From Trametopsis cervina (lineage: Eukaryota; Basidiomycota; Agaricomycetes; Polyporales; Irpicaceae), in the NCBI GenBank assembly GCA_022385755.1, contig MU278353.1, positions 953,000-1,016,999 on the forward strand: 64,000 nucleotides of DNA. Reading direction: 5' to 3'. Positions 7,983 through 64,000 of this stretch are shown piece by piece. The notes below the pieces were generated by a model. The model was not told the origin of the DNA, searched no databases, and worked only from the letters and a program-made list of their open reading frames with translations. Positions within the stretch are counted from its first letter, which is position 1; each line of letters begins with the position of its first letter. The position numbers and the translations under genes were made by a program.

Positions 7983-8299
7983 CTATCACTGAGACCGTAA
8001 ATAGCTATCTGTTTGCAGATTGTGTCCGACCGCTGGTGCTTCCTATCTTGGGATTTCTCTGCACAATATTGTAGTCATAAGATGAAACGGCCTGTAGAAT
8101 ACAATAATATATACCGTCTCCCTACGTGTATTTTCGAGTGTGGCGTGCACGATTCGTGTTATTTGTAGATGAAAATCGAGGTTGGAGTTTAGCCACAATA
8201 GATACATATACATTTTAGTCGGAGGGAAAAACAATACGATAACAAAAGACAAACAAAAAGACAGCATACACTTGACATGAGTCACAGGCTTGGTTTCAA

Positions 8300-41788: not shown

Positions 41789-43610
41789 TTAGCTATCGCG
41801 CAGGCAGTCAATTCGGAGATATTGTTGACCTTCGTGCATCACAAGAAGTGAGGATGGCGTTGACGACGAGAGCTGAAGCTGAGGGAATAACCGAAAGAGC
41901 ATATTCCCGTCTTCACTGCGCTTTGCTCGCTGCAGCAGCATGTCCGCAAAGGCCTCGTATTCCATACCGAGGGAGCTGGCATCATTCTGGATAACTGTCT
42001 TTTCATACATATGACGCACCGCCTTGAGGAACTCGAAGGCATGAAAGCAGTGAGTCTTCTTATCCCTTGTGAAAATGCCTGCAGGCTGCGGCCACCGTGG
42101 TGTCGTTTCGTACGTGGTCGTCCCATTGTACTTGACGTTGTGCATGTGCGTTGGCACTCCATCTGAGCACAAGCCACGCTTGTGGTTGGTGGCGGAACCT
42201 TCGGGACCAGGAAACATAACTGTGCGACAGCGTTTGCAGACAGCGTTTGCTCGCTTTCGGTTTTCATTTGGTGCATCGGTCGCTACCAAACTGACAGCAA
42301 AGCAGTGGCGAGACCAGAATGTTGTCGAGCCAGACCGTCGGGCTATATTTGCACAATGTTTTTACTGAGTAACACTTTCAGATACGGCTTGTAAGAATGA
42401 TTACTCACAGACGAAGTCCTTCCGTGCAAGTCTATCGAGGATCTCTACTTCAATATCGCCAATCTTCTCCATAATTGCGCGCGGACTTTTGGGTGCAGGA
42501 GGAGGGCCGGGTGTATTGAGCTTTGATGCCACAAGCGCGTTGTTGTAGATACGGGCAGCCTCAACGTACGAGTTTGAGTTCATTCGATATGAAGCCCACT
42601 GGTGTTGCTCTCGAAGGTTCATGAAGAGGTAGTATTCATCATCTCCACTGATTTTGAGCGAATTTGGATTGATGCCAGTTTGAGCTTTGAAGAGTCGTTC
42701 ACTGCGCGTAAGTCCTTGACTATCGTTTGGAAGGGGCAGGCGATCAGAAAGAACGTTGAGGGGAGTAAACGTCAACTGGACCGGAGCCGGCTGTGGTAGA
42801 TCATCCAGGGTTGGCGGAGGTGTGTGTATTTGAGATGCCGAGGTTGGGTATAGTGAAGCTTCCGCTTGGAAGGCGGACTGTGGCTTTGAGTCAGAAATGT
42901 CGATTGGCTTGACATGACCGAATTGAGCCGAGACAGGAGTGAACGAGAAACTACTAGCATGGCCTGAGCCGAACGAAGAAGTTGCTTCGTTTACTGAAGC
43001 TCTCAATGAAGTTGACGAACTGGGCACAGGACTTGTTGGCTTTGCAAGTCCGTGTAGGTGAAAGAATTTATGCATATTGGTCTGCTTATGTCAGTCAACA
43101 GCTATTATAGACTTCACGGAATAAAACACACCTTTTGTTGCGCCTTTAGCGGCTTTCGTAGATTTATTCCAGGGGCAATAATCTGGAGCTTCTTCTCCGC
43201 TGGCTCTCCCTCCATCCATTCTCTATTTCCATCATTATTATCAAGGCTTATTGCCTTGCGCTTTGATAATGCGGTGATAGAGCGAATACTCCCTTCAACT
43301 GTAGCGCGATTGAAGGAACCAGATATGTTTAGCTCAGGACTGACCGCTTCACCAATTGCTGGCACATCGAGCGCTGACAGCTGTAAGCTCCCGTTTGAAG
43401 AGCTATCGTCGTTGTCCACAGCCGTGAGGTCCTAACAACGCGTAAGCAGTTGCGCATCTGGATAACTCGGGGTTTAACTTACTATGATGGGTAAAGTCGG
43501 TACAGTAGCCCTACTCGAGCCATCCTTTAACTGTAGCATTCCGATCGACTCAATAACTTCAACCTTCGCAGCATGCGTGTCGTGTGGAATGGGGTAGTTC
43601 AGCTAAGTAG
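41789..43610 (-). pseudogene. 3' part of an interrupted DDE-transposase-like gene
   Basis: C-terminal half of a multi-copy basidiomycete transposase-like protein. Exons run from about 43600 to 41789 with introns near 43435-43482, 43092-43135 and 42353-42408. They encode LPIIDLTAVDNDDSSS, LTRSERLFKAQTGINPNSL, DDEYYLFMNLREQHQWASY, then ARKDFVSRRSGSTTFWSRHC. A zinc-knuckle-like stretch follows (CKRCRTVMFPGPEGS, then NHKRGLCSDGV), and the end is YLRIDCLRDS-stop. The family order (DDE core, SGESFG block, acidic linker, TRSERLF block, Cys stretch) is completed by the piece at 62237-64000. The 18.6-kb element lies between them. The frame is open on this side, so the disruption looks recent. Family assignment is from memory of the shared architecture. 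Confidence 0.7.
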
Positions 43611-43649
43611 CCAGTATTATCACAATCAAAGTGGGATTTATAGCCGGTA
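43611..43649 (+). repeat. Left terminal inverted repeat
   Basis: Begins CCAGTATTATCACA and aligns without gaps to the reverse complement of 62198-62236. By eye 31 of 39 positions match; the first 14 are identical, and TGGGATT and AATA/TATA blocks follow. Confidence 0.8.
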
Positions 43650-45870
43650 TTGATGGCCAACGGATTCCGGCCGGCCGCCGTAAGGATAGCGGTAGTACTG
43701 TGCAGCTGGGCATTATGGATACTGTGATACTATCATAGATGTATTAGCATGTGTTTTGTATCCAATATAAAGGCTTTTATTGTAGAGCCGGCCAATGAAT
43801 GTAGCATACTATCCCTCGGCCGATATAAACTATGTGCTGTGATACTTCCCGGCCAATGTCAACAATGGTAGCCGGTCGATATATTGCTCAGGATGCTGAC
43901 TCTATAATATAGATAGGCCGATTGAGTTCTTCTGTGGTAACATTGGTCGGCCGATCTGACTGCCCCAATATTGATGCCTTGCCACACATAATATTGCTCG
44001 GCTGGATGACATACTTTTGTTCTGCAATACAATAATACTGGGCGGCCGGACATGATAATATCTTGCTATAGTACAGTAGTGTCAGTCGGCCGGCCATATA
44101 ATACGTTTGTAGTGGTCGGCCGGAATCAATTGTCCTCCTACCTATAATGCTAATATGTATCGGCCGGCTACAATAGGAGCACTGAGAGTGTCGTACTGAT
44201 GGTCTACAGCCCTGTAATATTGATAGACGTAGGTTATTGGAGTCCAGTAACATTGGTCGGCCGAACACCATGGCACCGTACCAGTCTCCGATAGTATCCA
44301 TCGGCTGGACATACTGGTAGACCGTTATAGCACAGTAGTAGTATGCGGCCGGTCAGACAACTCAGTAGCTTATTGCAGTGTAGTAACACAGATCGGCCGG
44401 ATACGATTGTACTGTATCTTTACTCAGTACTATACATCGGCCGGATATACTGGTAGGCGGCCGGTTAGTCAGCACACTAGGTTATTGTAGTCCAGTACTA
44501 CCGGTCGGCCGGTCATCACAGTACAATATCCTTACACAGTACTATCCATCGGCCGGACATACTGGTAAGTTATCATCACCCAGTAGTNNNNNNNNNNNNN
44601 NNNNNNNNNNNNNNNNNNNNNNNNNNNNNNNNNNNNNNNNNNNNNNNNNNNNNNNNNNNNNNNNNNNNNNNNNNNNNNNNNNNNNNNNNNNNNNNNNNNN
44701 NNNNNNNNNNNNNNNNNNNNNNNNNNNNNNNNNNNNNNNNNNNNNNNNNNNNNNNNNNNNNNNNNNNNNNNNNNNNNNNNNNNNNNNNNNNNNNNNNNNN
44801 NNNNNNNNNNNNNNNNNNNNNNNNNNNNNNNNNNNNNNNNNNNNNNNNNNNNNNNNNNNNNNNNNNNNNNNNNNNNNNNNNNNNNNNNNNNNNNNNNNNN
44901 NNNNNNNNNNNNNNNNNNNNNNNNNNNNNNNNNNNNNNNNNNNNNNNNNNNNNNNNNNNNNNNNNNNNNNNNNNNNNNNNNNNNNNNNNNNNNNNNNNNN
45001 NNNNNNNNNNNNNNNNNNNNNNNNNNNNNNNNNNNNNNNNNNNNNNNNNNNNNNNNNNNNNNNNNNNNNNNNNNNNNNNNNNNNNNNNNNNNNNNNNNNN
45101 NNNNNNNNNNNNNNNNNNNNNNNNNNNNNNNNNNNNNNNNNNNNNNNNNNNNNNNNNNNNNNNNNNNNNNNNNNNNNNNNNNNNNNNNNNNNNNNNNNNN
45201 NNNNNNNNNNNNNNNNNNNNNNNNNNNNNNNNNNNNNNNNNNNNNNNNNNNNNNNNNNNNNNNNNNNNNNNNNNNNNNNNNNNNNNNNNNNNNNNNNNNN
45301 NNNNNNNNNNNNNNNNNNNNNNNNNNNNNNNNNNNNNNNNNNNNNNNCGGACATACTGGTGGGTTATCATGGCCCAGTAGTAGTGAGTAGCCGGTCAGTC
45401 TGCACAGTAGGTTATTGTAGTGCAGTACTACCGGTCGGCCGGTCATCACAGTACAGTATCCCTACACAGTAGTATCCATCGGCCGGACATACTGATGGGC
45501 TGTACTAGCACGCTAGGATATTAGAGCTCAGTAATACTGGGCGGCCGAATCCCATAGCACTGTATCCTGACACAGTAGTATATGTCGGCCGGACACACTG
45601 GTAGGTTATCATGGCACAGAAGTAGTGGGCGGCCGATCGGTCAACATAATGGCTTGTTGGATTGTAGTAGCATACGATGGCCGAACACGATAGTAGCGTG
45701 TTGTTGCCCATAGTGATATTATAGTAGCCGTCGGCCGACCAGTACCTTGCACAGAGTAATATCAGCCGGCCGGCGATGACAGTACCTTAACAAGTCTGGT
45801 ATTACAGTTCGGCCGACCACGGTAGTACCGTGTTATCACAGTACAATAATATCTGCTGACTGGCGCTGAT
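43650..45870. repeat. Left subterminal CGGCCG array
   Basis: CGGCCGG, CGGCCGA and GGCGGCCG motifs recur every 20-60 bp, separated by AT-rich spacers with repeated CAGTA and TACTG words. A higher-order unit containing CGGCCGGACATACTGG recurs at intervals of about 106 and 136 bp after the gap. No coding potential. The array includes N's at 44588-45347. It probably serves as transposase binding sites, as subterminal repeats do in many DNA transposons. Confidence 0.85.
44588..45347. other. Assembly gap (N's) in left array
   Basis: 760 unknown bases inside the repeat array. Long frames called across it are artefacts. Confidence 0.99.
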
Positions 45871-45993
45871 TATAGCTCATTTTAACTGTTAAGTTGGTAC
45901 ACCCCTGTTCTTCCTCTGATACGCAGGCGTGTATTTCACGGTCGGCTTACAATTTGTGACAACATACTATTCCAACACAACATACAGGCGTAT

Positions 45994-46696
45994 CTACAAA
46001 TCATTGCTGCCATCAGAATCCAACTTGGTAGCATCGTCATCATCCTCGGAATCGGTCAGCTCAATGACCTCGATGGGAGGCTGTATGCTCCCAATTGAAT
46101 GTGTGACTTCGAGGCATTGGCTTGAACACTCACGTTTGCAAAGCTCCACCACCAATGATTGATAGGGGGCTGCATATCGGCCGTTCTTCTCCCTACAGCT
46201 GGGTATGTCCACCACCGGTCACCCCACATATTATCTGGGGCCGGCTGGGCATCGAAGGCAATCGCGCGAAGATCATTGAGGTTGAGATCAACCTGGTCGA
46301 ATTTGATTGTGACCTTATTGAGGAGCCAGACAAGAGGCTGGTCCAGCTGCACCTTGTCCACACGGCACTTTCCTGAGAGAATGCCGGCTTGGAAGAGGAC
46401 CGCTTTCTGAATCAAAATGAGCATATAACCGGCTATAATATATTTTTGCAACTGACCACCTCCTCAATGAGCCCCCGTTTGAATCGTGCACAGTTCAGCA
46501 CATCGTCTTCGGCAGGGAGAACCAGCAATGCTTGGCGACAGCGAGCAGCGTATACACGGAGGTATGAATCCGCCATGTTCTCAATGACATGATGGTTGCG
46601 CCAATCTTGGTCGTGAAGGAAGGTGGGGATTTGCCTCATATCCATGGTGGCGGATACGATATGAGCACCATCAAAGCTGGACGTATATATAGGCAT
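45994..46696 (-). CDS. Small KDZ-linked protein with C-terminal SIM-like motif
   Basis: Unrecognised protein of about 200 residues. Exon 1 starts MPIYTSSFDGAHIVSATMDM and ends FKRGLIEEV. Introns near 46392-46440 and 46085-46135 join it to KAVLFQAGILSGKCRVDKVQ, with DNMWGDRWWTYPAVGRR further on, and then PPIEVIELTDSEDDDDA. The last segment is a textbook SUMO-interacting-motif pattern, V-I-E-L followed by an acidic run. It starts only 46 bp after the transposase stop on the same strand. It could be a separate gene or a spliced C-terminal extension of the transposase. Role unknown; recruiting SUMOylated host chromatin factors is an inference. Confidence 0.55.
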
Positions 46697-46742
46697 AGAT
46701 TTGTGCTATCCAATCGGCGTACTCTAATGAGTCACAGGCTAT

Positions 46743-49700
46743 CTATTGAAGTGTAGATCGAGCTTCAATTGCGTGATCTTCCAGCCTCTGCCACACATAT
46801 GCTTGGCGCAAGGCGTATGCTGTATATCCTGCACCTTGCCCACGCTGATGGGTCTTGTCAGCCCTATCCGTCCATACCTTCCGATAGTGCTGATAAAACC
46901 GGGCAATGCACTCCAACTCAAATGGAATCAGAATTGCCTCCTCCTTCCATCGATCCCGCCGTGCCTTTGCCCTAAGCCATACTACTCGCCGATCTAAACG
47001 TCTGTTAGTGGCCGGGCTCATCGGTCGATCAAATGAAGGCTTACATTCATCAAGCAGCTTGCCATTGTCAATGCCGGATGGGTGTGCATCGCCCCATATC
47101 CACGACTGGTGGGTGTGTCTCAGTCCACGGATATCTGACGAAAGAAACTCCGTGCTAATTTTAAGATCATCTTTGGTCAGCGGCTTGAATCTGGTGCGAA
47201 TGGCGACTCCTTCAGGGCTGGCTTCATCGGTCATGGCATACATGATCCGACGTGTCTGCTCATAGATGCTAGCTTGTTGTCGCACGCTGGCGGCCACGGC
47301 TCGAACCTTATCCCAGGCTCTGAGTCGTTCATTGTATGCTCCAGCAGGACGGACACCTCGACGGAAGACGACCGATTTCCATGCGAGTAACACCCGGAGT
47401 GATGCAAGCCGATCTTCGGCCTGTCCTTGCCGCAATGCAAGCTCTTGTTCTATTCCTGCCTGAATCTGGTGGTTGGGGCCATTGGCAGTCACTGGGAGAG
47501 TTGAGAATAACAGGACCGGAATTTTGTAGGCCGGAACCTGATCTTGTTGCAGCTCTGAGGCAGCCGAAACCGGTTGATCCTCCGGTCCGTCCTCGTCATC
47601 GGCTGCATCCCACTCTGCTCCGTCGTAGGCCGCAGGGTCTGTTACATTGTCGAATGCATTATGCGATGATGAATTTGTGCCGGGAGCCACCGTGACCGTG
47701 TACATGCTGCCGGTATTTTCATGCGATGAAATACGCACTGCAAGTCGCCGCTCCTTGCGAATGAACTTAAGCTTATCATCGTTGCTGGCGTATCTGCCAA
47801 GCTTCCTTGCCTCGGCTGATAACGCAAGCCTGGAAATAGTCAGTATTTTATGGAATACATGTGCATCTCATACGTACTGCTCTTCCTGTAGTCGTAGGCC
47901 ATTGGCAACCCATGCCGCACGGCCAATCAAGGTAGAATCACGGCCGGTCTCTAAAGCCGAGAGGGCAGCAAGTCGATCGGCCAGGCCTGGTGCTGGAAAG
48001 ACTCAGCACAAAGTCGGCGTGAGCATAGAGCAGACATACCAGATTTCTCATTGACGTCAAAGATATCCATGGCTTCGGGACTATTCCATCTCTCCTCCAA
48101 AGCCGTTGTTTCCATAATAGACCATGCATGGCGATCTTCGGGGCTCAGAGTGCTGTTGACAGACTCAAAGGCTTCTTCGCTCGCAGCGAGCATATCGGCA
48201 GCATTTGTGTACTTTGCACGTATTCGGTTAACTGCCCTCAGACAATTCAGCGCTGAATGACAGACTATAGTTTCAGTACATACCAATGCGAATGGTTTTC
48301 ATCCAGTTGGAGTAGCCGATCTGATCATCAATTGCTTCTTGTCGATGAGCCGAGGTCATACCACGGGTCGCACGACTGGTGTCATTCAACGATGCCCATA
48401 GCGTCTCTATAATTTCACCGTCGACCATACCCACACCCTTTATGAAGTCAGGTGAGAATCGAGGCAAACACGACTGCTTGTGCCCATGGACATGGAATAA
48501 GCCGATGCCTTTCACCGTTCTCAGGTTGGGGAGGTGCTTGACCATATTACTTAGAATTGGCGAGTTTTCAATTCTGTATCCGAGGTGTACCATCCACTGG
48601 CATACAACGTCATAGTACAAAACGGCTTCAGAGAGGGAGGGATGGATGAGCCGCTCCAGACTGTTGACATAGGAGTAGTCCATATCGCGCTGCCTGCATA
48701 CCGGTGAGCATATGCCTTTTATGTTGGGTGTACAACATACTTTTCTCCACGTGTGAAGTTTACCACAGAGTGCGGTACCATGGCCCCATGCCTTGCACAG
48801 GCCGTCGCACCTATTCCTGTGGCATCTAGAGTACTTTTGTGGCCAGGTCCATTGACCGCTTTATGATCATTACAAGACGACCGCTAGAACTCAGGTTAGC
48901 ACTGCTGTTAAAATGTCAAAACGCACGGGCCCACCTGCACACGTTCAACAGCAGTACGAACATGCTCTTCAAACCTGGCTCGCCCTACAAAAAAGCCATC
49001 CCCGTCTGACAACCAAACATCATCCTCCGGGTTCTTCATCCGCTGATGCTCGGCTGCAAAGTTACCATCCATAACCAGCTGGACACGATATTTCCATCTA
49101 ACAGAACATATTCGGTCAGTACAGGTATGCAAATGGGCAGAAACATTTGCTTACTTATCCTGGTCATCCTGCCAGTGTGTAGGCAGGTTGATGTTCGGTT
49201 GAGGGCAGGCAGGGCAAAACAATGCCATTTGGCCTTTGACGTCGGCTCGATATCCGTCGTGTGTTACTCCCGTTATGCGACGTGTTTTTAAGTGCCGCCA
49301 CTGACGTATCACCCGGAGGAATTCACGGTAGCGGTTCTACAGCATTTATTCAGTAGCAAGACATTATGACAGTTTTGTACACGCACCGAAGTAAGGTGGG
49401 GCTGAATAGGGTCTGTAATTCTCTGTAGCACATTGAAATAGCTCTGCGCCGGTGTGTTACATGCTCGATTATAGAGAATAAAGTTGTCCAAGACCGCGAA
49501 GGTAAATACTGTGGCCGGCCGGTCACAGCTGGCGGGGTAGAGTCGAAGATCAAGCAACTGACGGTACCGCTCAGTGGCAGCAGAGCACTGACAGTAAAGC
49601 ACCGTAATATGATGGATACCGCTCACATCAATTACAGTGAGCTGACCGGCTTTGCGTTGGGTGCGCCCATTGAGCCCGGCCGCAGTAGACAGATCGGCTT

Positions 49701-50540
49701 CATTGTCTTCGGGCATGTCTTCCAGGACGTCGATTGGCTCCAGCCGCTCTTCCTCTACTTCAAGCACTTCTACAATCGTATTCGCGCTCTGCATGGCATC
49801 ACCGGTATGATGCGGTGACGTTGGATCGAGAGCATCCTCGGCTTGCGTGTACTGTAGGGTATGGATGTCCCATAAATAGTCGCATCCGTGGCGCAAGCAT
49901 TCCTACGTACCTGCAGGCCGGTCTGCAATTCTGTAGCGGCACGAGTAGGGCATAGGTTCCCCCCATGTCCACAATGCAAGTTCATGCCGGTTTGTGGAAG
50001 CGACCAGGGGGTGTAATATCCATCACTGTGCCACCGGCTCACACGATGCCACGGAATCAAAGCATGCGCTTTGTGTAGGCAGGGCAAACAGTGTATAGGA
50101 GTGCCTAGGCAGTCGTCGCAGCGCCAGTCGGCCACATTGCCACAGTAACATTCTCGGCCGGCCGATGTGGGCACCTCACCGGCCAATATTGCCTCCTCAA
50201 AGGCAAATCGGTAGTTTTCCAGCCACTGCCGCATAAAGTAATTCTGGGACTGGTATATGGGGTAAGTATACACTCCACAATATCTGTCCACAGGTTCGCT
50301 CACTCGAGAACTGTCAACGTTGGGAGGTGGGATATCTTGTTCGATTGAAGGCGGGTCATCGGCCGCACTCCTTCCACCATGAATGTCATCGGGAGCACGT
50401 TCAACGACCTCCGGCCGGCTCGGAACAAATTCAACTCGGTCTAAGACTTCAATACTGCCCTGGCCATGTCTCATCGGCTTTCTAACCGGCGCATAGACAT
50501 GGATTTTACTGCGAATCTTCCGTGTAGTTGACCGAGCCAT
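46743..50540 (-). CDS. KDZ-family transposase with CxC2-type cysteine cluster
   Basis: Transposase of the Kyakuja-Dileera-Zisupton superfamily (RNase-H-fold). After a basic N-terminus (MARSTTRKIRSKIHVYAPVR) comes a CxC2-like Cys cluster: ECYCGNVADWRCDDC, HCLPCLHKAH, WHRVSRWHSDGYYTPWSL and HCGHGGNLC (50150-49950). The KDZ block follows: YCQCSAATERYRQLLDLRLY, RPATVFTFAVLDNFILYN, FCPACPQPNINLP. Likely catalytic acidic positions are in VMDGNFAAEH (about 49065), YYDVVCQW (about 48605) and DGEIIETLWA (about 48415). HSVVNFTRGEK and MDYSYVNSLERL join cleanly across an intron. The C-terminus (VVWLRAKARRDRWKEEAILI, GYTAYALRQAYVWQRL) matches the family's usual end. No frameshift or stop is evident, so it is probably active. 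The TET stop codon is 94 bp upstream of its start. Confidence 0.9.
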
Positions 50541-50634
50541 GTTGTGGAGAGTGGAACAATGAGGGAATGATATCGTTATCCATTTGTCATTTACATGTAT
50601 AAGCCATTGGGTGATCGCTTTAGCTCACGAAACT

Positions 50635-51987
50635 CTACTCGGCCGATGTCCCACGTGTTTCTCCCATACCCAGCCAATCGCTCACGTCATCTGCAATATT
50701 CTTCATGTGCACTAATGACGAACATGCCACGTTTGTAGCCTCCATCAGCTCTTGCCGCATGAAGCTCACAAGCGCAACACGCTCCCCATCCTCAACCTCG
50801 GCTCCATGTCGAAGTAAGCCACCCGCGAGACTGATTATGGTTCCGGACTTGTAGCGCAGGCGGATACCTAGCTCTTCAATCATGAAGTCTCCATCTCCAT
50901 ATTTTCCACATGTGGCAAGCACATCGTACATGCCGGTGGAGGTCTTACGATCACGGTGAAGGGGTGTTTGCCGGTTAGAAATGATGGCAAGACCATGGCT
51001 TGGATACGCCCAAGGGTTCAGGGTCTCGTTAAAGCGTGTATCGGCAGAAAGAATGCCCTCGCAGCTTTTTTGCTGTTTGACCTGCAGCGGAAAGCAAAGA
51101 GCTGCGATAAAGCTAAAGACATCCTGGAACGGCACCATCGTCTCCAGCCAGGCACCAAAGTGCGGTGACGCATGAAAATCACGCCAGGCGGCTCCCAGAA
51201 CAGGTGGGTATTTCGGTTGCTGTTGATCACGATACGGTTAGTGTGAGGCGGTCTGGGCATGTATGCAACTTACCGGCTTCCCAGCCTCATGCCATACCGG
51301 CGCAAACGTGATAATCCCCGGAGGAATCTCGCAATCTTCTGCCTTGCGGAAGTATTGCAAATCTCCTCGCCAAGTCACACCGGCTGTCCGGGATGGATCT
51401 TGGGGCTTACATTTCGACTTTGTAAGCTCCTTTGTCAATACCTTTGTAGCCACAAGTGCTGCGTCCTAGACAATTGTGAGATTGAAAGCAGTGATGTGAC
51501 GTGCTGCGCACCAACCTGTGCCGAGGTATCAAGAACTTCAGGAAAGTACCAGCAAAGGATTCGGTCCTGCTTATCCGTGATGACGCATGGGAAGTCGATC
51601 ACATCTGTAATCGCTGCACAGTCTTTCACCCGGATCTTTTCACGGAGCTCGGGATTGTTCTCCGCTGTTTTGCCGTTCTCTATGTCAGAGGCATATGCAA
51701 CTGCATCGAGATGTTGATATTTGACTACTTATGGTAAGCCTCGCTTTTGAAACATCAGAAAGGAACTCACTAGCATTGCCTACCGCCACAACGTGCATCT
51801 GACAGATCCGCTCGAGTCTACCGACTCGGTCCGACGACATTGTATCCATCACGCTCCCCGGGCGCTCAGGATAAGGGTGCTGAGCATGTTCCAGCCTATT
51901 CACGTATTCCGCCGCATGGAATTTGAAGAGGTATGCCATTAGCTCCTGAACTTCCACGTTCCACTTTGCCATGAGTTCTACAGACAT
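50635..51987 (-). CDS. TET/JBP-family 2-oxoglutarate/Fe(II) dioxygenase
   Basis: Probable 5-methylcytosine oxidase. The core is intact in the last exon: PLHRDRKTSTGMYDVLAT with the HxD iron ligands (about 50950), then FMIEELGIRLRYKSGTIISL. The distal iron His is in GGLLRHGAEV (about 50810), and the likely 2-oxoglutarate-binding Arg is in GERVALVSFMRQ (about 50770). Upstream exons give MSVELMAKWNVEVQELMAYL, IRVKDCAAITDVIDFPCVIT, YFPEVLDTSAQ and VTWRGDLQYFRKAEDCEIPP, followed by an exon with the HLFWEPPGVI region near 51200. Fungal TET/JBP proteins oxidise 5mC to 5hmC and further; a Coprinopsis member is biochemically active. It is on the same strand as the transposase and close to it, as expected for KDZ-linked TETs. 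Confidence 0.88.
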
Positions 51988-52599
51988 TATCGTCGCTGGT
52001 ACAGAAAAGGAGTGAGTGGTGGTGGTGTTGAACTAAGTGAGTACCGGCACGTTATCTGATGCAATCTGCAGTACTCGTGTTGTGGCAGTGGTTATCAGGC
52101 TACCATGTGGCCTATAACACATTTCAAATCCATCGCCGATCGACGTTATTTACAGAGCGAGCAGAGTCTGATGGAAGGTCGGCCGAACAATTACTGTGCT
52201 ATCGGCCAGGCACCGGAGGGAATCTTGTCGGCCACGTTTATCTGAGATCTAGATTATGGTTTGCATGCTAATCGAATGACGATCTTACGATTCAATCTTA
52301 ACTTCTCTGTCTTCGTACTGTGTATACGCAGGCCACAGCGCATAGTAGGTCAAGGGTAGAACAGAACGACACTGGAATTCAACTAGGGCAGGTTATTTGG
52401 CAGGTTGACGAAAGTGGTGGATTCGGCCGACCGATAAGAACAGTCATATTAACATTTTGAAAGTGATCGAAACTAGTGCTGCATGCATGCATCCAGCAGT
52501 GTCGCACAAACTACATCGAGGCTTCGGATGAAGCACGAAGATGAACCGACCAGAACAAAAGTCGTCCGCCTACCTTGTTGTACAGTCTCACAACTTACC
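51988..52599. promoter_or_regulatory. Divergent TET/cargo-1 intergenic region with CGGCC motifs
   Basis: 612 bp between the two start codons. GTCGGCCGAAC (about 52177), ATCGGCCAGG (52200), GTCGGCCACG (52228) and TTCGGCCGACCG (52422) resemble motifs of the terminal arrays. Possible transposase or regulator sites; no gene seen. Confidence 0.45.
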
Positions 52600-55370
52600 A
52601 TGCCTCAAGGAAGAACTCTGCCCTCTTTTGAACTGTATAGCGATGCGCAGAAAGCAGTTATTGCACGGATCGGCCCGCTTTTTCGCAATGCAGCCGATCG
52701 ACATGCTCGTGCACAGTTGCGGCGTCAGGCAGGAGAGGAAGTTGCAGCTCTATGCCCGGATGGCTCTGCGTATTCCATCCATACGTGGGCGGAGGTATGT
52801 TGCACATCTTCTTGCGGCCGATTCAATATTGATGTAAGTACCAGAGTGCCTCTAACTATATGCAAAACCACTTCAAACCGCCTCCGAGCAGTCTGCCTCC
52901 AGCAAAGAAGTCTACACCCCGGCAGCGTGCACGAAAGTGGACGGATATGTGGGCGGAGGAACATGCACAGGAGCTTCACACTTATCTGCGAGAGAACGGA
53001 GCCGGCGATGGGCTGAAGGCCCGCAATCTAGCGATTAAAGAGCTAACCGAAGACGTAGCCGAAGACGCAAAGGCACGATATCGCGAGGCCGCCCGACAGC
53101 ATAAGGACGGAGAGGGGCTTACCGTCACACAGCAACATAAGTAAGTAGCATACAGCATTCATGCGAATACACACTCACTTTCATCCCACAGAAATCGGAA
53201 AGAACTATTGAAATATGCGAAGTCGGTTGCGACCGGCTTGAACACCAACTATGGTATCCCGTTCACATTGCTCCTGACCGGCTACAAGGATGTTGAGGGA
53301 GAGTGGAGTGTCACCGCGTAAGCATATCACATCTTGTGCGTGTGATATACTGATACGACTTTGATCAGCCTCGACAACAACGACGTTATAAATCCTAATG
53401 TCGCCACCATGGCCAACACAAACGGGAAGGCGTTCAACACGATTATTACCCTTTGGCAGAAATATATACAAGACGTAACCGGTAATGTCCCCTTTCATTG
53501 TGAATAGGTTATACAACTGACCGATTAGCAGATGCACTGGAGGCCGATAAGGAAGAGTCAACAGCCGGTGACAGCAGCGCTGTGAAGATCGCAGGTACCG
53601 CCGGCCGAGACATTCCCATGCTACCGCTGGACAACGCAGGACATTGCATCATCCCATCCGATGATGATTTGAATCTGCTCTCCGCGAAGGATCTCAGCCG
53701 GGCTGTTCGCGAAGTGTGCACAGCCGAGTATGGTATGTCGGTCGGCTAAGCTGCATCTGCCCGGTACTTACCTTTGTGAGGACAGTCCTTGCAACGGGGC
53801 TCGCCTCCGCAACCATGCCTTGGGTGGACATACGCTCACACCCCGAACAGTACTTTGATGTTGGCCGTATGTGGTTGGAAGACGTTCAAGTTGAAGATCC
53901 ATCCCATCTTCGCCGCCGATCACTCCTTTCCCTGCTTCGCCAATATCGTGCCCGCGACGACCGATTTCTGCGGTTTACTGGGGTGCAGAGAGATGGAGAG
54001 CTAGTCTATACCGGTCTATATCCGGCACACACCGATGACACCCCTAGCGAAGATGAACAAGTTCCCCCGGCGACCCAACCTCCCAAGTCGAATCGGCCGA
54101 ATCAAAGCAAGACATCGGTCCGTGGGAGAAGAGCTAAGGGAAAGGGGAAAGCTCGTCAACTGCCTTCCTCAGAGCCGGATGCGGTGTCTACCGACGACGA
54201 TGAGGGTAGCGTCACCGAGGTGTTGGGTGGCCATGTGCAAAACGCAGCCGATCTCGTTAAACGCTCCTCTACACGTACTCATCCCAGACCGCGTATTGTT
54301 ACCCGGCAACCTGTAGCGCAACTGGTAGTTGTTCCCCATGGTGAAGGTCTACTTACATTGTCGGACTACGCCGAGCAGCCCCCAGATGAATTTCGAGAAC
54401 GTCCAGACCAGCATATCAGTTACGTGAAGGCGTTGGCACCGGGCGATGTTCGGCTACACGCTGCAGCCGACCGCACATTTGGTTTCAGGAGCAGTCCGCT
54501 TGAACAGATCCAATACGTCCCACTCAAAATGATGCCGTGGGCAACCTGGTACTACCCTTCGGTTACCCTCCCCAGCCCTCGCATCTTTGACTACGCCCTA
54601 CTGTGGCCCTGGATCAGCCAACGCGAATACATCACCGGGGATCTGTTCTACAACAAGGCCGGGCAGCTCGAACAACTCACTCTCGGGTTCGCTATGTTGC
54701 TGCGGGAGCTCCTTTCTACCACGTTTGATCGTCTCAGTCCCAGCGACGAGGTGATTGAACGTGAGTCCATTCTTACTGGTGAAATGACAATCAATTCGGC
54801 CGTCGACATCATTCATTCCGCTCTTGACTTCATACTCATGGTTCTACCCCCGCCGTCAAATATCCCAGTGGGAGAAACGCCTCAACCGTCGCAACCGGTA
54901 TCAGAGCCTTCCTTCTATGCTATGGCAGACACAGACCTCAGTGTCTTATTGCCAGAGCTTTACCTCACGCACGTGGAGACCGCCCTTCCCGGACTACCGA
55001 GCCCGGCTCATATCACCGAGGCTGGAAATACAGATCGGGAGCCGGAGACAGAAGACATGGCTGAGCTGGCCGACCTCGAGGAGGGAAGCACTGAGGAGTC
55101 AGGAACGTCGGATGCACTGTTACGGAAAAGGAAACGGGCTGCCACTGGGCCTTCAACAGCGTAAGTCAACATGTCACGCTGGTATAATCCACTCTAATCC
55201 TGTGTAGCAGACAAGGTGCCACATCACACACCTCTACAGAGCTCCCGATGGCTACTGTCAAGCCTCCGTCGAAAGTCGCCAAAGGTCACGAGTTCACCGA
55301 GCTCAAGACTCGCAGCGGTCGGCAGGTTACCGTTTCTGAGCGGGCGCGGGGCAGCTTAGTTCTCAAGTAG
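52600..55370 (+). CDS. Transposon cargo gene 1, unknown (HMG-like segment)
   Basis: Large protein not recognised by name. It starts MPQGRTLPSFELYSDAQKAV, with an intron at about 52796-52852 joining TWAE to SASNYMQNHFKP. A basic-helical segment follows (TPRQRARKWTDMWAEEHAQE through EDAKARYREAARQH). Its spacing of aromatic residues and its ending resemble an HMG-box, but this is tentative. Next come KYAKSVATGLNTNYGIPFTL and a long exon (53800-55160). That exon has an acidic/basic disordered middle (RGRRAKGKGKARQ) and an ordered C-terminal part (YVPLKMMPWATWYYPSVTLP, WPWISQREYITGDLFYNKAG). The end is SERARGSLVLK-stop. Convergent with cargo gene 2, 58 bp apart. Probably nuclear; role unknown. Confidence 0.68.
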
Positions 55371-55428
55371 GCCGTACATACATATGTAAATTGTTCTGAC
55401 TGTTAAATGTTACTTGGATTGGACGTGG

Positions 55429-57039
55429 TTATTCCCTCTCGTCGGAATCTGACCCTGCCTCTTCAATTCCTGCAAACGAAACAACACGGCTACTACGACT
55501 TCGGGAGGACACTTTGACATCGGTCAGCGTACAATGCGCCCAATGGAAGTAGTGCATGACTTACTCCGGCTTGATGCTTCTGAACGAGGACTGTTCAGAA
55601 GCTGCACCGGTGGATCACCAAATGCAGACAGCTGACCAAGACCGGTCGACTCATTCCTTGCTGACTTAGTGGTGTCAGTGTCTCTGTTGCGACGACCGAG
55701 GCGAGATCGGTCAGCTGGGGTAGGTTGCAGGGGTACAGAATCGGCGCTCAGCAGGTCGTTTGAGGCCGGAAATGGGGGAGATTCTACCATAGCGTTCAGT
55801 ATCAATCTGTCACAGATAGCCGTGCTGGCTCACCTTGGCCAGATGGTTCTGTAACAGCGTCACTTGCCTTGTTCACAGGTGTGTCACCGAAGGCAGGAAG
55901 GCGAGCAAGAGCAGAGACGTCTTTACCGGCATCACCGGCAGTACGTCCATGCGTACCAAATGCGTCTTCAGAATTGTCATCGGGGACAGATGACCCTTCT
56001 CTGCCATGCGACGAACCCTCTCTGCTGAAGCCGGGTAGGATCTGCGAAGGTCGTGCATTTATTGCTACCGTGTGGCCTTCATTCGCTAATCCTGGGTTCA
56101 GCTCAAGTTGAAGTGCACCCACAGCAGTGCTCTCGGTAGATATGGTGAGATCGGCCGCCTCGCCCTCACTACCTTCGTCTTCAAATGCTGGAAGCTCCAC
56201 CTCCCACACACCTGTGCCATCACTACTCTCAGCATCGGACTCGAATGGGGAGTTTGAAACCGTGTGTAGGCTAGCCGATGTAACCTTTCTTGATGGATTC
56301 CTCTCCGCACCGGTTGATTTATTCCGACTAGTTGTAGTATCAGTCAAAAAAGCAGGCACCGGCTTTGCCATATTCCACTGGCTGTCGTCCTCATCCGAAC
56401 TCTCAGACCGGTCTGCTGATGACAGGGTGGGCGCACCGAATTCGCGTAATGGAGAAAGCACTGAGGGCGCCTGTTCTGCCCTTTGTTGTTGGTGTGCACG
56501 TGGTTCCTCCAAGCTGAAGGTAAACTCAAACGAGTTGGAGCGTCCGAATCGAAGGGGTTCTGCATGAACTGGCGATGGGGAATGTGCAGGGTGAGTTGAT
56601 GATTCCATACCCATAGGCGATGTGCCGGTGAGTACAGCGGCCTCCTGTTCAACTGCAGAGTCTGCTGGTGTGCTTGAGCCTTCAAATGCAGGAAGGATAG
56701 AGCGGCCGAAGACGATTTCTCCTGGGTGATCTTCATCATCGGCCATCTCTGAGTCTGATGAGTCGCTATCGGTGGTGTGGTTTGAGCTCTGGACAATATC
56801 AGCGGCACTGCGGTCTGCGTGGAAAGTCAGTTAAAGCGGCAGATGAAAGATTGGGATGCATGTACTTACCTCTTGTTATCCAGAAGGTTTCGCCATCGGC
56901 GAGTAGCCCATATTGTGTTTCCTCACGGCCGGTCACATCATACACTCGGCCGAACCTCTGCGTACGTGATGTGTCTAGATGTTATATTTGAGAACTCCTC
57001 GTACTCATTACAGGTGGAAAGGCACTTACCGCGCTGCAT
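55429..57039 (-). CDS. Transposon cargo gene 2, disordered with repeated PAF motifs
   Basis: Unknown protein. The first exon (57039 to about 57030) holds MQR only. The second gives SRTQRFGRVYDVTGREETQY, then GLLADGETFWITR, a compact beta-type segment. The large exon (56746-55830) and the last exons are Ser/Glu-rich and probably disordered. A short hydrophobic motif recurs in them: ILPAFEG, PVPAFLTD, ELPAFEDE, RLPAFGDTP and QLSAFGDPP. The end is EEAGSDSDERE-stop. A repeated linear motif in a disordered chain suggests multivalent binding to one partner. It diverges from cargo gene 3 over 220 bp. Not seen in a named family. Confidence 0.62.
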
Positions 57040-57259
57040 GTTTGCAATAGTGAGAACTAGAATATCTGTCTAAGTTATAGGCGCCTTGCGGATAGCCTAC
57101 ACGATCACGTGATGTACTCGGCCGGTCTCGTCGGACGCGGCGATCTTGCCATGCTGATCTACCAGCTGGCAGCTTCATCTTCTCCGTTGTTTCCTCTTCC
57201 ACTTCCATCACCACACACACCGTGCTCTTGCATTTGAATCCCTACCTCGTGTCCTCATC

Positions 57260-60200
57260 ATGTCCACCAACGCTCAACACCGTATGAACGTGGCCGTTTT
57301 CCGACTTCTTGCCGGGCTGGATGTTGTCAACAACGTCCCGCAGGAGAAAAGGAAGGAGTATTGGGATGAAATGGCTGTCGATGCTGTACGTATCTTTACA
57401 CTGTTTAATTTATATAACTAATGATTTGCAGGAGGTCGTGATACAAACATGGAACAGTAACCGGCAGGTAATTGTAAACTCGGTGGCGGCAAGCGCGGCC
57501 ATCGAAATGAGAGCAGCCGGGCTGAAGAAGAAGTTCCCGAAACTGCGTCGCATTACTGCGGACGATCCTCGAGTTAGGCAGTACAAGATGAAGCTAACGG
57601 ATGCACGGCCGGCTATCAATGAGGACACTCTGGATGCATCTGGCAGGGCGTGGTGGGAGGGTAGGCATTTATTCCGTTTTGTGCTGCTTTTTCTGATGTT
57701 TCTTTACAGATTATACCATTCATTCCACCGACGACGCATCAAAAGGAACTGCATCGCCAGAGTCGGCAGCCCCGGGTACACTACGTAGCGGCCGATTGCG
57801 CGACATGACCGCAGACGTTGGCAGGAGTCCAGACAATGGTCAAGACGAACACCACCCCGGCGAGACGAAGACGCTAGCTACCCGAGGTCGGCGACCGAAC
57901 GCAGCAGCCTTGGGCCGGTCACAAAGCCCTGACAAACTCCTTGAAGGTGGCAGCCAAGTCAGGAAAGGAAAACGGCCGGTTCAACGTCACACCTCCCCAG
58001 TGCCGGATGGTGAGGATGTAATGGACACAGGTGTGTACCTATGTCATGTATCTAGCGGTCTGACTAATACTTCAACAGACAACGGTCAAAGCAGCTCGCC
58101 AAGACCACTTGCCCGAGGTCGGCAGTCACGCACAGTGGCTATGACGCTGTCACCCAGTCCTGAACAACCTCGGAAAGGGCGCAGTTTGGTCAGGAAAGGG
58201 AAACAGCCTGCGCGGGGACGAGCAACATCCGTGCTCACCGGTGATGAGGCCATGGACACAGGTATGTATCACAACATGGACATAGCAGTTTGACTAACGC
58301 GTTGGCAGATACAACTCATAGGAGCCCGCCTCAACGACGAACTCGTAGTGCGTCCAGGGCTAAACGCCCTTTGCAGGCTGTTACAGAAGGTGAAGACGAA
58401 GGTATGGCTACAGGTGTGTGTCAATGCTGTCTATATCGAACTGTGAACTAACCGCAATGTAGATACAAGTCGTCGTAGTGTACCTGCACGCCGGAAACGT
58501 AGCCGGTCTGCATCTACTGTTGCAGCGGATGCTAGCGATGTAGAGGAGCAACCGGCCCTGAAGTCCGCCATGAAAAGGCCAAGAAAGCTTCCACGAGTTA
58601 TTCGACCCATTGTCCGACGTCAGAAGCAGCAGCGTGAAGTCAACAGGGGGAAAGGCAAGGCAAGAGCAGCGTCGGTGGTCTCTGCCGTGGAAACGGACGA
58701 CAATCCTGTCCAACAATCTCCATCGCAGCAGACGCATACCAATGTCGATGGAATGGATGGCCCGGCTCTTGATGTGGACGCGCTTGCCGAGGAAATGATA
58801 ACGGAGGAGGACTGGCACGTTGGACCGACTGCTTCGGTGAGTACAACACATGCATGCAGTATCCATACTGGAGTGCTAAGTTGAGCTATAGCGTCTTTGG
58901 TGCACCTCATGCAAGTCGACACGCGAGGAGGGCTTTCGCCACAAATGCAACGTCTATTTCAACCCGGGCGACACCACCTCCAGTGCACGATGCATTCGAT
59001 GCATAAGGCAGAAGCTACGGTGTGACCTTGCTCCACGATTCAGCAAGGGCACGAAGACTACCGTTGAGATTCTCAACGGAATGCTCTTGTTGCTGAAGGT
59101 TGCCGAGGAACGACATGCCGAAGACCTTCTCCTGCCTACGACATTTCAGGATGCTGCATTGATGGCCACCTCCAGCCATCCCGATCAAGGTACATCTGCA
59201 CCTCCGGAGGATCCGTTTGAGTTGACGGATGGCGAGGATGATCTGGAATGGTGGCATCGCACGAGAAAGTCCGCCTCCGGTAATTCGTCCTCAAAGGCAC
59301 GCCAACCGGCCGGTCACGGGCGTGGAAGGCCAAACACACGTGCGCACAAGACCGCAAAACCTCAACAGACCAAACAGGGCCATGCTGCATTGCCGTCAGC
59401 CCCTGTAGTGTACATGAGGAGTCGTACATCGCGTGGAAAACACGCCATTCCTTCAGACTTGGAGATTAGTAGTGGAGAGCTGGAAGCCGACCGTCCGCAG
59501 CCCAGTTCACGTCGTGTTCGCCGCATCAATGCACGTGAGCCCAACGACAGTAACTGGAAGATAGGTTCGCTTAGACTGATTCACCTGCGTTTTGATCTGC
59601 TAACCACTGCTTTTTAGTCGACTCCTCATCTGAGTTTGTGACTGGCCGATCAGATGGTAGGCCGAAGTGCTTTGCCCGAGCTGAATCACGGGCTGACTTA
59701 CTAATAGATTGGGTAGCAGGAAGGGTCTACCACTCGCAGGGATACTACAGCAACCTCCATGCACAGCAGATGCGCGAGAAGATGGACCCTGAGGACGAAT
59801 CGGACGAAGAGCCTGACAACGCTCCAGCAGACGACGCAAGTACTGGGCCGCAAGCGGAAGAAAACCACGCAACTTCAAGCTCGGATTCGCTCATGTTCAG
59901 CCGCCTCACGCTCTACAACGACGTTGAATGGGACCCTCCACTGGCATATGAAGATCCAATTTGGTATGATGTGATACCAGTAGACTCGTGGCATGCTGAA
60001 GCAATATTTGGGGATTTCAATGGCGAGCAGCCGCCTCCGGACGAGCAGATTCAAGTTGATGAGCCGGCATCATTCGCACCACCTGTGGCCCTTTCCGCTC
60101 CGGAAGCACTCGGCAATAATACAGGAATGCAGACAGAGGTACCGACGGTTGCATCCCAGTCTGCTGAGCAAACACCTTCCAGGATCATGCTCAATACAGG

Positions 60201-60363
60201 TACGGTTGTCATTCCTTGATATGTGAAAATTTAGATTGACGATTTTCAAATAGCTGTTCAAACTGAGCATTCCCACCAAATGGGTGAGGCGTCCATTCAG
60301 ACGGATGGCCCTAACCACAGTCGTGCTGGAGTGTCTTCAGTGCAATGGGGGTGGGCTCAGTAA
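57260..60363 (+). CDS. Transposon cargo gene 3, Cys-rich with repeated exons
   Basis: Unknown protein. It starts MSTNAQHRMNVAVFRLLAGL, with a helical N-terminal region (EVVIQTWNSNRQVIVNSVAA). Several similar exons (57700-58560) follow, each rich in Arg/Ser/Pro and ending in a GED/GDE-xMDT-like sequence before the intron. A cysteine cluster at about 58890-59030 reads LWCTSCKSTREEGFRHKC and ARCIRCIRQKLRCD. The second half has the C-x2-C-x6-C spacing of fungal zinc clusters, but the first half does not, so this is a variant zinc site. A helical segment (VEILNGMLLLLKVAEERH) comes next. The C-terminus carries three QT-D/E motifs and ends SSVQWGWAQ-stop. Likely nuclear and DNA- or chromatin-binding, by inference. 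Confidence 0.65.
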
Positions 60364-60571
60364 TGGATGGTTACATTGTACTCTGTACTTCTTTTATATC
60401 GCAGCCAATTTAATATTGATCGTATATTTATGCCTCATGCACAATGAAGTGTTGCAGAAGATTTGTGTGACTAACATACCCCAGTCTTCATCTCATAAGT
60501 TAAACAGCACTATGCCTACCTGGCCAATTAAGTATACTCATCATACAGCCTGTCATCAATATTGCGCTGTG

Positions 60572-62197
60572 ACCGGTCTCGTTGCATCATCGGCCAGGCA
60601 GTAGTAATGTTTACCGGCCCATGGGTAATACCACTCGGCCAGCCTATACAATTCTTTACCACACGGTCAGTCATTATTACTATGCGGCCAAACGGTACTA
60701 TTGCTCCTTGAGCAGTCTACTGTGTCATCGGCCAGGCAGTAATGCCGTTTTACTAGCGGATAGATAATACCACTCGGCCAACCGATATGATTCTAATGTA
60801 CGTTTTCAGTTATTATTACTGTACGGCCGACCGATAGTATTCATCTATCACTGGTCTACTGTGTGATCGGCCAGGCAATAATACTGTTTGCTAACCGATG
60901 TAAATTATTGTCCGGCCGATCAACATTACTCACCCAACATGTTATGATCACTCTGTGGCCGGGCAGTAATACTGTATACCGGCCGAGGGATAATACCACT
61001 CGGCCGACCGATCTAAGGCTAAAGCACAAGGTCAGTAATTATTACAGTACGGCCGACCACTACTATTGGTTCANNNNNNNNNNNNNNNNNNNNNNNNNNN
61101 NNNNNNNNNNNNNNNNNNNNNNNNNNNNNNNNNNNNNNNNNNNNNNNNNNNNNNNNNNNNNNNNNNNNNNNNNNNNNNNNNNNNNNNNNNNNNNNNNNNN
61201 NNNNNNNNNNNNNNNNNNNNNNNNNNNNNNNNNNNNNNNNNNNNNNNNNNNNNNNNNNNNNNNNNNNNNNNNNNNNNNNNNNNNNNNNNNNNNNNNNNNN
61301 NNNNNNNNNNNNNNNNNNNNNNNNNNNNNNNNNNNNNNNNNNNNNNNNNNNNNNNNNNNNNNNNNNNNNNNNNNNNNNNNNNNNNNNNNNNNNNNNNNNN
61401 NNNNNNNNCGACCGATCTAAGGCTAAAGCACAAGGTCAGTAATTATTACAGTACGGCCGACCACTACTATTGGTTCATGACCAGTATATTGTATCTTCGG
61501 CCAGGCAGTAATACTGTTTCCCGGCCGACAGATAATACCACTCCTCTGACCGATCTAAGTCCAAAGCACACGGTCAGTAATTATTACAGTGTGGCCGACC
61601 ACTACTATTGGTTTATGACCGGTATACTGTGTGATCGGCCAGTCAATAATACTGTTTGCTGACCGATGCACAGTATCGCCCGGCTGTCCCATATTATTCT
61701 TCAGCAACCTGTAAGTTTATGTCAATGGCCGAGTAGTAATACTCACCAGTGAATGAACCATGTGTGAAATCGGCCGAATGAAATTACTCGTCAGTATGCA
61801 ATCAGTACATATGAGCGGCCGAACGATAACACTGACATACAGTAACACGGCTTGGTGCACGTCTCCGGCCGACGGGTAGTATGTAGCATACTGTTTCGCT
61901 CGGCTGACCTACCGTATTGCTGTATTTTGTAAGAGTATATCGGCCACCCGATATTATACGTATTAATTGCTGCTTGTAATGCTTGATAGGTCTGCTTGAT
62001 ATTATAGAATGCATGCCGTTTTTTCACCTTACATCGGCCGAGTGATATTACCGCCTAACTCAGCTTCATATACTGCACAGTAGGCATAGTGTACACATAT
62101 TTCGGCTGGTCTGTATTACCAAGATATATTGCTACTACACCGGCACTGTACTACTAAGCTACCATACATGGCCGGCCGAGGTCGGCCAGCCGATAGC
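60572..62197. repeat. Right subterminal CGGCCG array
   Basis: Motifs such as CGGCCAGGCAGTAATACTG, CCGGCCGA and GTACGGCCGACCACTACTAT recur, with a higher-order unit of about 138 bp. Unit sequence resembles the reverse complement of the left array (GGCCG-CCACTACTA and CCAGTAT words in both), as expected for inverted subterminal repeats. No coding potential. Gap at 61074-61408. Confidence 0.85.
61074..61408. other. Assembly gap (N's) in right array
   Basis: 335 unknown bases. The 69 bp on its left (61005-61073) are identical to the 69 bp on its right (61409-61477). Confidence 0.99.
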
Positions 62198-62236
62198 TAT
62201 CGCCTATTAATCCCATGTTCCGTGTGATAATACTGG
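62198..62236 (-). repeat. Right terminal inverted repeat
   Basis: Reverse complement begins CCAGTATTATCACA and matches 43611-43649. The last element base is 62236; flanking gene sequence resumes at 62237. Confidence 0.8.
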
Positions 62237-64000
62237 ATTATATATCTTCACGAGGACGTGGAATGACATGAGAGGAGGACGAGTTGTCGAGGAGCAAAGG
62301 GTCAATAGGTATGTAGACCTTTTGCTCATAGATACTGGCTAAGGCTGGATCGATGCTCATGGCTTCCAAGATCTCACGACGCTGTGTGTCCTCGTCATCG
62401 ATAGCATCATTGAAATCGTCTTCCTCTTCTTCTTCAATCTTCAAGAGCCCTCCAAATGTCTGGGCATGCTTTGATATAACTGCGCCAAACGATTCGCCAC
62501 TTGGTACGTCTTCTATGACTTCTAGCGTTTGCAGCTTATCGAACCCTTCTAAACGCAGCACACCACGTCCTGCTGACGTAGGACTGTGCTGTTGTAGAAG
62601 ACTATTCCACAAATGAGCGTTATGGTCCACAAGGCTAATGTGGTGGCTGCCAAACGTCGATGCGAGAAAAGGAGTAGGTGCGAACTCCTTTGATTTGAAG
62701 CGCACACGGACATTTCGTCGAAGAACATGGTCACCCGCCAAGTTCAATATACCCTCATAGCCAGAGGGGTTTGCACGTTGCAGTGAGTTCCAGCCTTTAT
62801 GGGAACCCTCGATGCGGCTTCCGTCAGAACGAACATCGTTTCGCGGACGAGAAAGGCATCCTTTCTCTACGTGAGACATCTGAACGGCATGTGCCTATCA
62901 AAACCGTTGGTAAGTTTGAATACAATCGCGCAGATAGTCTGCTTACGTACCTTTGCAGCCGCTTGTGACCAAACATTTCCGTGAGCAAGCCACTTCTTGT
63001 ATGTAGCGTCCAGCCTTGCTGCTTGTTCCTCTTTATTCCGCCAAATTGCAGGCTTGCCATTTTCTGCTGGCCTCTCAAGTATCGCTTCGACAATATCACG
63101 CGATACAGCTCCGCGATAGGCGTTGTGAACACCTCCGATGATTACAGCCTCATATCTAACATTGATGTGAGTAATCTCGACGGACTATGCAATCGCGATG
63201 CTGACATACCGGCCTTTGAAATGCTTCAGGTCTAGACCGAGAAATGCACCGGGAAGATTCTTCTTCACTGCGCCAGCTACCTGACAGCAGTTATCTGCTA
63301 CCACAATAAGGTCTTGTGGAATATTAAGCAGATCAAAGCGACGTCGTAAACCAGCAAGTGATTCGCCAAAGTCGTCGTTTGCACCACTTTGACAAAAGCG
63401 CTATATGTTACAGTTAGCGAGATTGTCTGCATTGAGAAGCAAAACTCGTACGTAGAGGACGATCTCATTCTTTTCATTGACCGCTGAAAACATCCCTCCT
63501 TTCCAGACCTGGTCACGCGAACCATCTTGCGTGTTGATGGTAGCCTTTCGCGTGATGCGATATGTATGATCAAACGAGAGCGTGATGGCTAGAGATTTGC
63601 GATAAGTAAGCCTCTTCTGCAGATCATTGTTTTCTTCTCACCTTCAAGCGTACGCAGATATTTTGATGACTCCACCAAGCGCAGAGCCCCAAAGAGTAAG
63701 TATACCTCAGTAATCATATCATTGCTGATTGAAGCATCGGCATAGCCATTTGATGCGCGCGGCGGCGAGAATGGTTCAATACTGATCGACTTTCTGAACG
63801 ACAAGACAGTTTGCCCTTTTTGTGCGATCAACGTCTCAATAAACTCAAGGTACGCCAACCGCTGCGCATGATAGTGAAGAAGGTGGAGTTCTGATACACC
63901 GTAATTAGATTTGATGCTACCAAGATGAAGACATCGACCTACGTTCAACATGCGTTGCTATTCCCAGTGCGGTAAGTGAAGGACGGAGCTCAATGATGAG
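62237..64000 (-). pseudogene. 5' part of an interrupted DDE-transposase-like gene (runs off window)
   Basis: N-terminal and central part of the gene whose end is at 41789-43610. Exons give LHYHAQRLAYLEFIETLIAQ, FDHTYRITRKATIN, VWKGGMFSAVNEKNEIVLY, RFCQSGANDDFGESLAGLRR, LIVVADNCCQVAGAVKKNLP and RGAVSRDIVEAILERP. They continue with GCLSRPRNDVRSDGSRIEGS, HKGWNSLQRANPSGYEGILN, HHISLVDHNAHLWNSLLQQH and VPSGESFGAVISKHAQTFGG. Aspartates in FDHTY and VADNCC are candidate catalytic residues. The frame reaches HVIPRPREDI and meets a stop at 62238, next to the transposon end. The start lies beyond 64000. The family is widespread and repetitive in agaricomycetes as I recall it, so this host gene may itself be a mobile element. 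Confidence 0.72.

Follow-up and report, generated by a model that had tools for sequence, protein, structure and literature searches.

A KDZ transposase gene lying beside a gene for a TET/JBP dioxygenase raises the question of whether the two move together and, if so, which of their neighbors move with them. Here we address this question for a 64-kb stretch of the Trametopsis cervina genome (the window; contig C6:953000-1016999), in which a first-pass annotation had proposed a complete, bounded KDZ-TET transposon with definable cargo. Positions refer to the window unless a contig is named; the genome searched comprises 29.4 Mb in 59 contigs, labelled C1, C2 and so on and given in genome coordinates. 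Comparison of copies places the element at 43591-62257 (18,667 bp), and we are nearly certain that this span is one copy of a mobile KDZ-TET element family of T. cervina. That comparison establishes both the mobile unit and the genes it contains: the genome holds ten elements with paired ends, which have the same tips and all lie between perfect 7-bp duplications, and the five two-ended copies compared in full (window, C6b, C28, C17 and C2; 17,963-18,667 bp) have an identical gene order. The proposal of a complete unit is thereby borne out.

The ends of the window copy are organized as follows (nt, nucleotides).

43584..43590, no strand: left target-site duplication GTGGAAT, from the paired-end comparison
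43591..43610, plus strand: left tip GGGGTAGTTCAGCTAAGTAG, common to other copies and no inverted copy of the right tip
43611..43649, plus strand: left arm of an inverted repeat, 20 nt inside the true end
62198..62236, minus strand: right arm of the inverted repeat, 21 nt inside the true end
62237..62257, plus strand: right tip, terminating in TTATATATCTTCACGAGGAC, common to other copies
62258..62264, no strand: right target-site duplication GTGGAAT, from the paired-end comparison

The first-pass annotation had taken matched terminal repeats at 43611 and 62236 as the ends. The repeats themselves exist (43611-43649 and 62198-62236, 39 nt, 79% complementarity), but as ends they are ruled out, because the copies share sequence outside them and the duplications start further out; the boundaries drawn from other copies thus shift slightly outward, by 20-21 nt. 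Specifically, the 20-21 bases outside the inverted repeat are common to copies, unlike each other at the two ends, and followed by unique sequence, and the aligned pairs have tips of the form GGGG...GAC, with CAG...CTG appearing only 20-21 nt inside. The outer 14-mer of the inverted repeat has two exact matches in the genome, which are both ends of the window element, and 19 matches with one mismatch, some of which lie about 18 kb apart and are the ends of further elements.

The 7-bp duplications differ between pairs: none of 90 cross-pair 7-mer comparisons matches, and the best agrees at five of seven bases. Because ten of ten are perfect and mutually different, the unit transposes. The base to the right of the duplication is G in six of the ten pairs, the same as the first base of the element, so an 8-bp duplication would fit those six. 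The eighth base differs in four pairs (C6b, C15, C17 and C18), which excludes a strict 8-bp duplication, and the recurrent G may instead represent a target preference. That the shared flanks are a repeated host target was considered and rejected, as all 12 left-tip matches (0-3 mismatches) and all 13 right-tip matches (0-1 mismatch) adjoin element sequence, with unique duplications beyond the tips, no dedicated search for a joined empty site having been made. Four right-tip matches with three mismatches (C3:1418021 and one each on C4, C9 and C31) were discarded as unrelated on inspection.

Gene content of the family

Coding stretches were located by the codon-position bias of differences among the five copies, and splice models were then built, giving five genes in a fixed order (aa, amino acids).

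45994..50540, minus strand: KDZ transposase with CxC2 domain; model of 1287 aa, or about 1270 aa if 46994-47044 (51 nt) is an intron
50635..51939, minus strand: TET/JBP dioxygenase; model of 384 aa in 4 exons, start possibly further upstream
52600..55370, plus strand: gene C; 7 exons coding for 821 aa, with a stretch resembling an HMG box around residues 94-156 (as numbered in relative P0001)
55802..56746, minus strand: gene D; at least 314 codons (the open frame counted from its first ATG), fast-evolving
57260..60366, plus strand: gene E; 8 exons coding for about 916 aa, largely of low complexity

The transposase therefore has four companions, namely TET and three genes without a Pfam family, rather than the five initially counted, whereas the notion of a bounded cargo holds. 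The two enzymes are as first identified: the transposase matches PF18758 with 157.1 bits (cut-off 26.6), its residues 411-639 spanning the whole profile (1-217), and the CxC2 profile PF18803 with 81 bits (cut-off 27), and the dioxygenase matches PF12851 with 41.1 bits (cut-off 34.9). The transposase motifs MDGNF, YDVVCQ and DGEIIETLW, which we take to contain the catalytic acidic residues, are identical in five of five copies. Pfam matches of CodY on TET, NNH7 on a piece of gene C and COMMD1_N on a piece of KDZ fall below the Pfam cut-off and were taken as chance.

The nearest solved structure to the window TET is CcTET of Coprinopsis. The Fe(II) triad of H-x-D motif and distal histidine, the arginine that binds 2-oxoglutarate and an aspartate at the position of CcTET D337 are kept in all eight TET copies, which thus have the features of the AG type; according to Kojima 2025 (PMC12730594), the aspartate at D337 is needed for activity on 5-methylcytosine (5mC). 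At the position of CcTET G331, placed via an ungapped alignment stretch, all eight copies have threonine, where the Kyakuja set of that paper has glycine or serine, an observation on substrate range that does not define the class. Across the genome the Tet_JBP profile gives eight matches at E <= 1, five of them above the cut-off, and all lie at the eight TET loci of elements; a control search with the same profile returned one E. coli match, below the cut-off.

Matches to TET and the two large accessory genes are confined to the elements. In the T. cervina genome, gene C matches at least nine places, gene E at least nine and TET at least eight, all inside element spans, and the ninth locus, on C18, has an N run of 21 kb at the place expected for TET. 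The concern raised at the outset, that these genes might occur mostly outside such elements, thus finds no support in this genome. KDZ domains, in turn, are found by profile search at no fewer than eight of these element loci, and in at least ten places outside the family. At these ten (C37:156630, C41:45341, C28:6701, C9:492362, C16:667079, C16:567975, C5:801708, C31:10249, C36:176379 and C3:1078986) there is no TET match, and some of them outscore the TET-bearing loci.

Genes C, D and E are less readily classified. Protein searches with gene C (as a single sequence and as an alignment) and with gene E, which require shared 5-residue words and score the top 7,988-7,993 candidates and may therefore miss distant relatives, returned only T. 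cervina proteins and the metagenome protein P0010 (449 aa, on a 7.2-kb contig). The latter is the sole relative of gene C found outside T. cervina, with 54% identity over 55% of the query. Searching the PDB by sequence, with the alignment of gene C and with an HMG stretch, gave chance-level matches only. Gene D likely has a conserved upstream exon at 56802-56981; its protein contains short LPAF-like repeats (LPAFEG, LPAFED, LPAFGD) in an otherwise low-complexity chain. Gene E encodes a cysteine cluster, C-x2-C-x11-C-x14-C-x2-C-x6-C, whose six cysteines are present in seven of seven copies inspected and whose loops are longer than the spacing classical for Zn2Cys6 DNA-binding proteins, a class with two-zinc clusters that bind CGG half-sites; in the C2 copy the protein model P0008 skips this cluster, and the DNA contains it.

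Subterminal arrays and a possible anti-silencing role

Just inside the inverted repeats lie two arrays, which the first-pass annotation had also recognized.

43650..45830, no strand: left subterminal array of CGGCCG-centred repeats, commonest spacing 44 bp, with an N run at 44588-45347
60590..62195, no strand: right subterminal array, for the most part in inverse orientation to the left one, with an N run at 61074-61408

The N runs mean that the assembly does not fix the array lengths. In the left 2.3 kb of the element there are 23 CGGCCG sites where 0.3 would be expected (none of 100 first-order Markov simulations gave more than 2), and in the right 2 kb there are 12, again with 0.3 expected (simulation maximum 3); per kb, the window copy has 14.9 sites on the left, 7.2 on the right and 1.7 in the body, compared with 0.12 in 43 kb of host flank, and both ends and body are enriched in five of five copies. 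Sites point one way in 122 of 125 left-array cases and in 24 of 80 right-array cases (Fisher p 3e-27, where sites within an array are not independent), and the spacing is 44 bp in 53 of 252 intervals and 43-49 bp in 90 of 252. A composite motif derived from the arrays, AGTANTANNNNTCGGCCG, has 22 exact matches in the genome, all 22 within element spans (none in copy C2, and three of those in C3 about 7 kb from its left end), and the reversed pattern, used as a control, has none.

These features are compatible with a model in which the offset inverted repeats and the CGGCCG arrays would guide the KDZ transposase to the two unlike tips, where it would cut before reinserting the element with a 7-bp stagger. 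The element would be silenced if the host methylated cytosines in its promoters and CpG-containing arrays, and its own TET would oxidize 5mC at these sites and so keep ends and genes usable. Two weaker steps may be added: the HMG-box-like protein C might form a synaptic complex by bending the long ends, and protein E, with its six cysteines, might read CGG/CCG half-sites in the arrays. We consider it probable that the element is a mobile KDZ-TET unit in which TET acts against silencing. The mechanism as a whole, including cutting at the tips and the roles of C and E, is more tentative, and we hold it at slightly below an even chance. The maize Spm/En element offers a functional parallel, as it has CpG-containing subterminal repeats and encodes, with TnpA, its own relief of methylation; the likeness would be one of working principle only, the transposases being unrelated and the T. 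cervina element encoding a catalytic dioxygenase.

Several observations weigh against this proposal. CGGCCG is not confined to the ends, with 24 sites in the element body against 3.4 expected, and nearly a third of right-array sites (24/80) have the left-array orientation. With a ratio of about 0.9-1.07 in arrays, body and host alike, CpG shows no depletion and thus no trace of past methylation. The HMG-box match of gene C has a Z score under the level that the comparison tool calls safe, a Foldseek search for gene C returned nothing at E <= 0.001, and gene C has no Pfam match; gene E likewise has no family match, and its structure model, with a pLDDT of 33.5, is unusable. Finally, stops or frame shifts appear in the exons of some copies when these are projected from the window.

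The alternative that survives best is that the arrays are plain multiple binding sites for the transposase, and that the role of TET and the accessory proteins is limited to the element's transcription and does not extend to its ends. The arrangement of the arrays, mostly inverted relative to each other and carrying a composite motif with a TA-rich side, would suit such binding sites, the transposase carries its own zinc-chelating CxC2 domain, and CGGCCG occurs throughout the body, including near promoters. Set against this are the two CpGs in the core of each array site, a possible TET substrate, and the cysteine cluster of gene E, which could read CGG. We regard this alternative as a real possibility, if not a favored one. 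Going beyond the anti-silencing model in the other direction, one might imagine a self-contained epigenetic switch, in which E reads the double-CpG CGGCCG palindromes as an inverted CGG/CCG pair, host methylation closes them, TET reopens them and C folds the ends, so that array methylation would license transposition and the five genes would form one obligate module; in addition, the family might survive as lineages too diverged for silencing by mutual repeat recognition. This extended version appears unlikely.

The anti-silencing model is open to direct testing, since the ends are exact, the gene set is fixed, the motif is specific to the elements and all detectable TET genes of the host genome lie inside them. 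According to Kojima 2025 (PMC12730594), the role of transposon-borne TET enzymes lacks experimental validation. As a side observation, four matches to the DNA methylase profile PF00145, all above the cut-off, fall in three places (C21:162486-163016, C1:1465193-1466366 and C5:754255-754389), so that cytosine methyltransferases are apparently encoded by the host.

Selection and age of the copies

Whole copies are 69.5-75.4% identical among the five, and synonymous differences per site amount to 0.43-0.80; pairs at or above 0.74 yield no ratio and were dropped. In the remaining pairs, the ratio of nonsynonymous to synonymous differences (dN/dS) is 0.07-0.11 for KDZ (5/10 pairs), 0.12-0.21 for TET (7/10), 0.09-0.16 for gene C (7/10), 0.20-0.34 for gene E (9/10) and 0.39-0.84 for gene D (10/10). 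Purifying selection thus acts strongly on KDZ, TET and C, moderately on E and weakly on D. Low ratios among such diverged copies mean that selection has preserved KDZ, TET, C and E in lineages that are old and separate, and the perfect duplications around these copies suggest that the lineages keep moving without large bursts. As such, the accessory genes beside KDZ and TET can belong to the mobile unit and be maintained by selection, as opposed to being chance neighbors.

The stops and frame shifts noted above have to be read with care. In projected KDZ exons, C6b and C2 have one internal stop each, in a presumed intron, and C17 has a frame shift; gene C has one stop close to a splice site in C28; gene E is out of frame in C6b and C17 and has one stop each in C28 and C2; and gene D is out of frame in C28, C17 and C2. 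The projection uses the exon borders of the window, and it neither demonstrates broken genes nor proves all copies intact.

That purifying selection has long acted on TET, C and E could also be expected if these genes, together with D, were cargo acquired by the element for the benefit of the host. The pattern is, however, that expected of genes needed by the element itself, and no C, E or TET match lies outside the elements in this genome, which makes such an origin very unlikely. That the elements are old, immobile but well-preserved relics, as the low identity of compared pairs (about 69-81%, bar one) and the stops in some projected exons might suggest, is very unlikely in view of the perfect duplications in all ten pairs, one recent pair (C3/C38, 96.6% identical against 68.7-81.2% for the other pairs in the stretches compared), the low dN/dS and the intact motifs of transposase (5/5) and TET (8/8).

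Relation to known elements, and other ends in the genome

TET-bearing KDZ transposons are already known as a class. The elements of Iyer et al. 2014 (PNAS) reportedly combine KDZ and TET with an added divergent HMG-domain protein; they would share with the T. cervina family the transposase, the dioxygenase and an HMG-like accessory protein, whereas here exact ends, target duplications, arrays and genes D and E are defined. Zisupton differs in its 8-bp duplication, from which four of the ten pairs depart. Complete TET-bearing transposons, among them Kyakuja of Agaricomycetes, are described by Kojima 2025 (PMC12730594) with Polyporales among the hosts. Kyakuja is nearest to the T. cervina family, sharing a KDZ-type transposase, an AG-type (CcTET-like) dioxygenase, 7-bp target duplications and the lack of inverted repeats at the extreme tips. 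Its termini, however, are given as 5'-CA..TG-3' for two Laccaria families, unlike the GGGG...GAC tips found here, and for this reason we do not file the present family under Kyakuja. The T. cervina family is further distinguished by the inverted repeat set 20-21 nt inside, by its long arrays of CGGCCG and by three additional conserved genes, neither arrays nor these genes being described for Kyakuja in the part of that paper on which we draw.

The Cryptococcus elements KDZ1, KDZ2 and KDZ3 are likewise large (9-11 kb) mobile basidiomycete KDZ transposons, but, as far as the available part of PMC12810828 describes them, their inverted repeats (139-241 bp) are truly terminal, and they have a CxC1 domain and duplications of 8 bp (KDZ1) or 4-8 bp (KDZ2 and KDZ3), with no mention of TET. 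The text consulted in PMC9674265 does not deal with KDZ. The literature searched, for Kojima 2025 in part, contains no account of the T. cervina family or its arrays, and Table S1 of that paper may include related families. What is new, on the descriptions available, is the family itself, together with the gene set that it conserves and the architecture of its ends.

Beyond the paired ends, a left tip on C20 and a right tip on C12, both near the contig start, have the same 7-mer and are probably an eleventh element split by an assembly break. Single ends occur at C5:1308069, C18:231979 and C47:62036. Those on C18 (231979-231998) and C47 (62036-62055) are right tips without a left partner, the former keeping the tip and only some 15-20 bases of the repeat. 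The left tip within C5:1306570-1311740 has no right tip in the stretch examined and is followed by several TGTGATAATGCTGG-like repeats and by CGGCCG at 10 sites, which may be what is left of an array after truncation or rearrangement. A short copy of 3.4 kb at C14:37370-40840 has both tips and a perfect 7-bp duplication, with N making up 1,700 of its 3,434 bases; it is either a deletion derivative or contains a mis-sized assembly gap, and it was excluded from the array and gene counts. Lastly, when the flanks of the window element are joined (43477-43590 and 62265-62894, minus strand), a 248-codon open frame without a Pfam match spans the joint, and the element may thus interrupt a host gene of unknown family.

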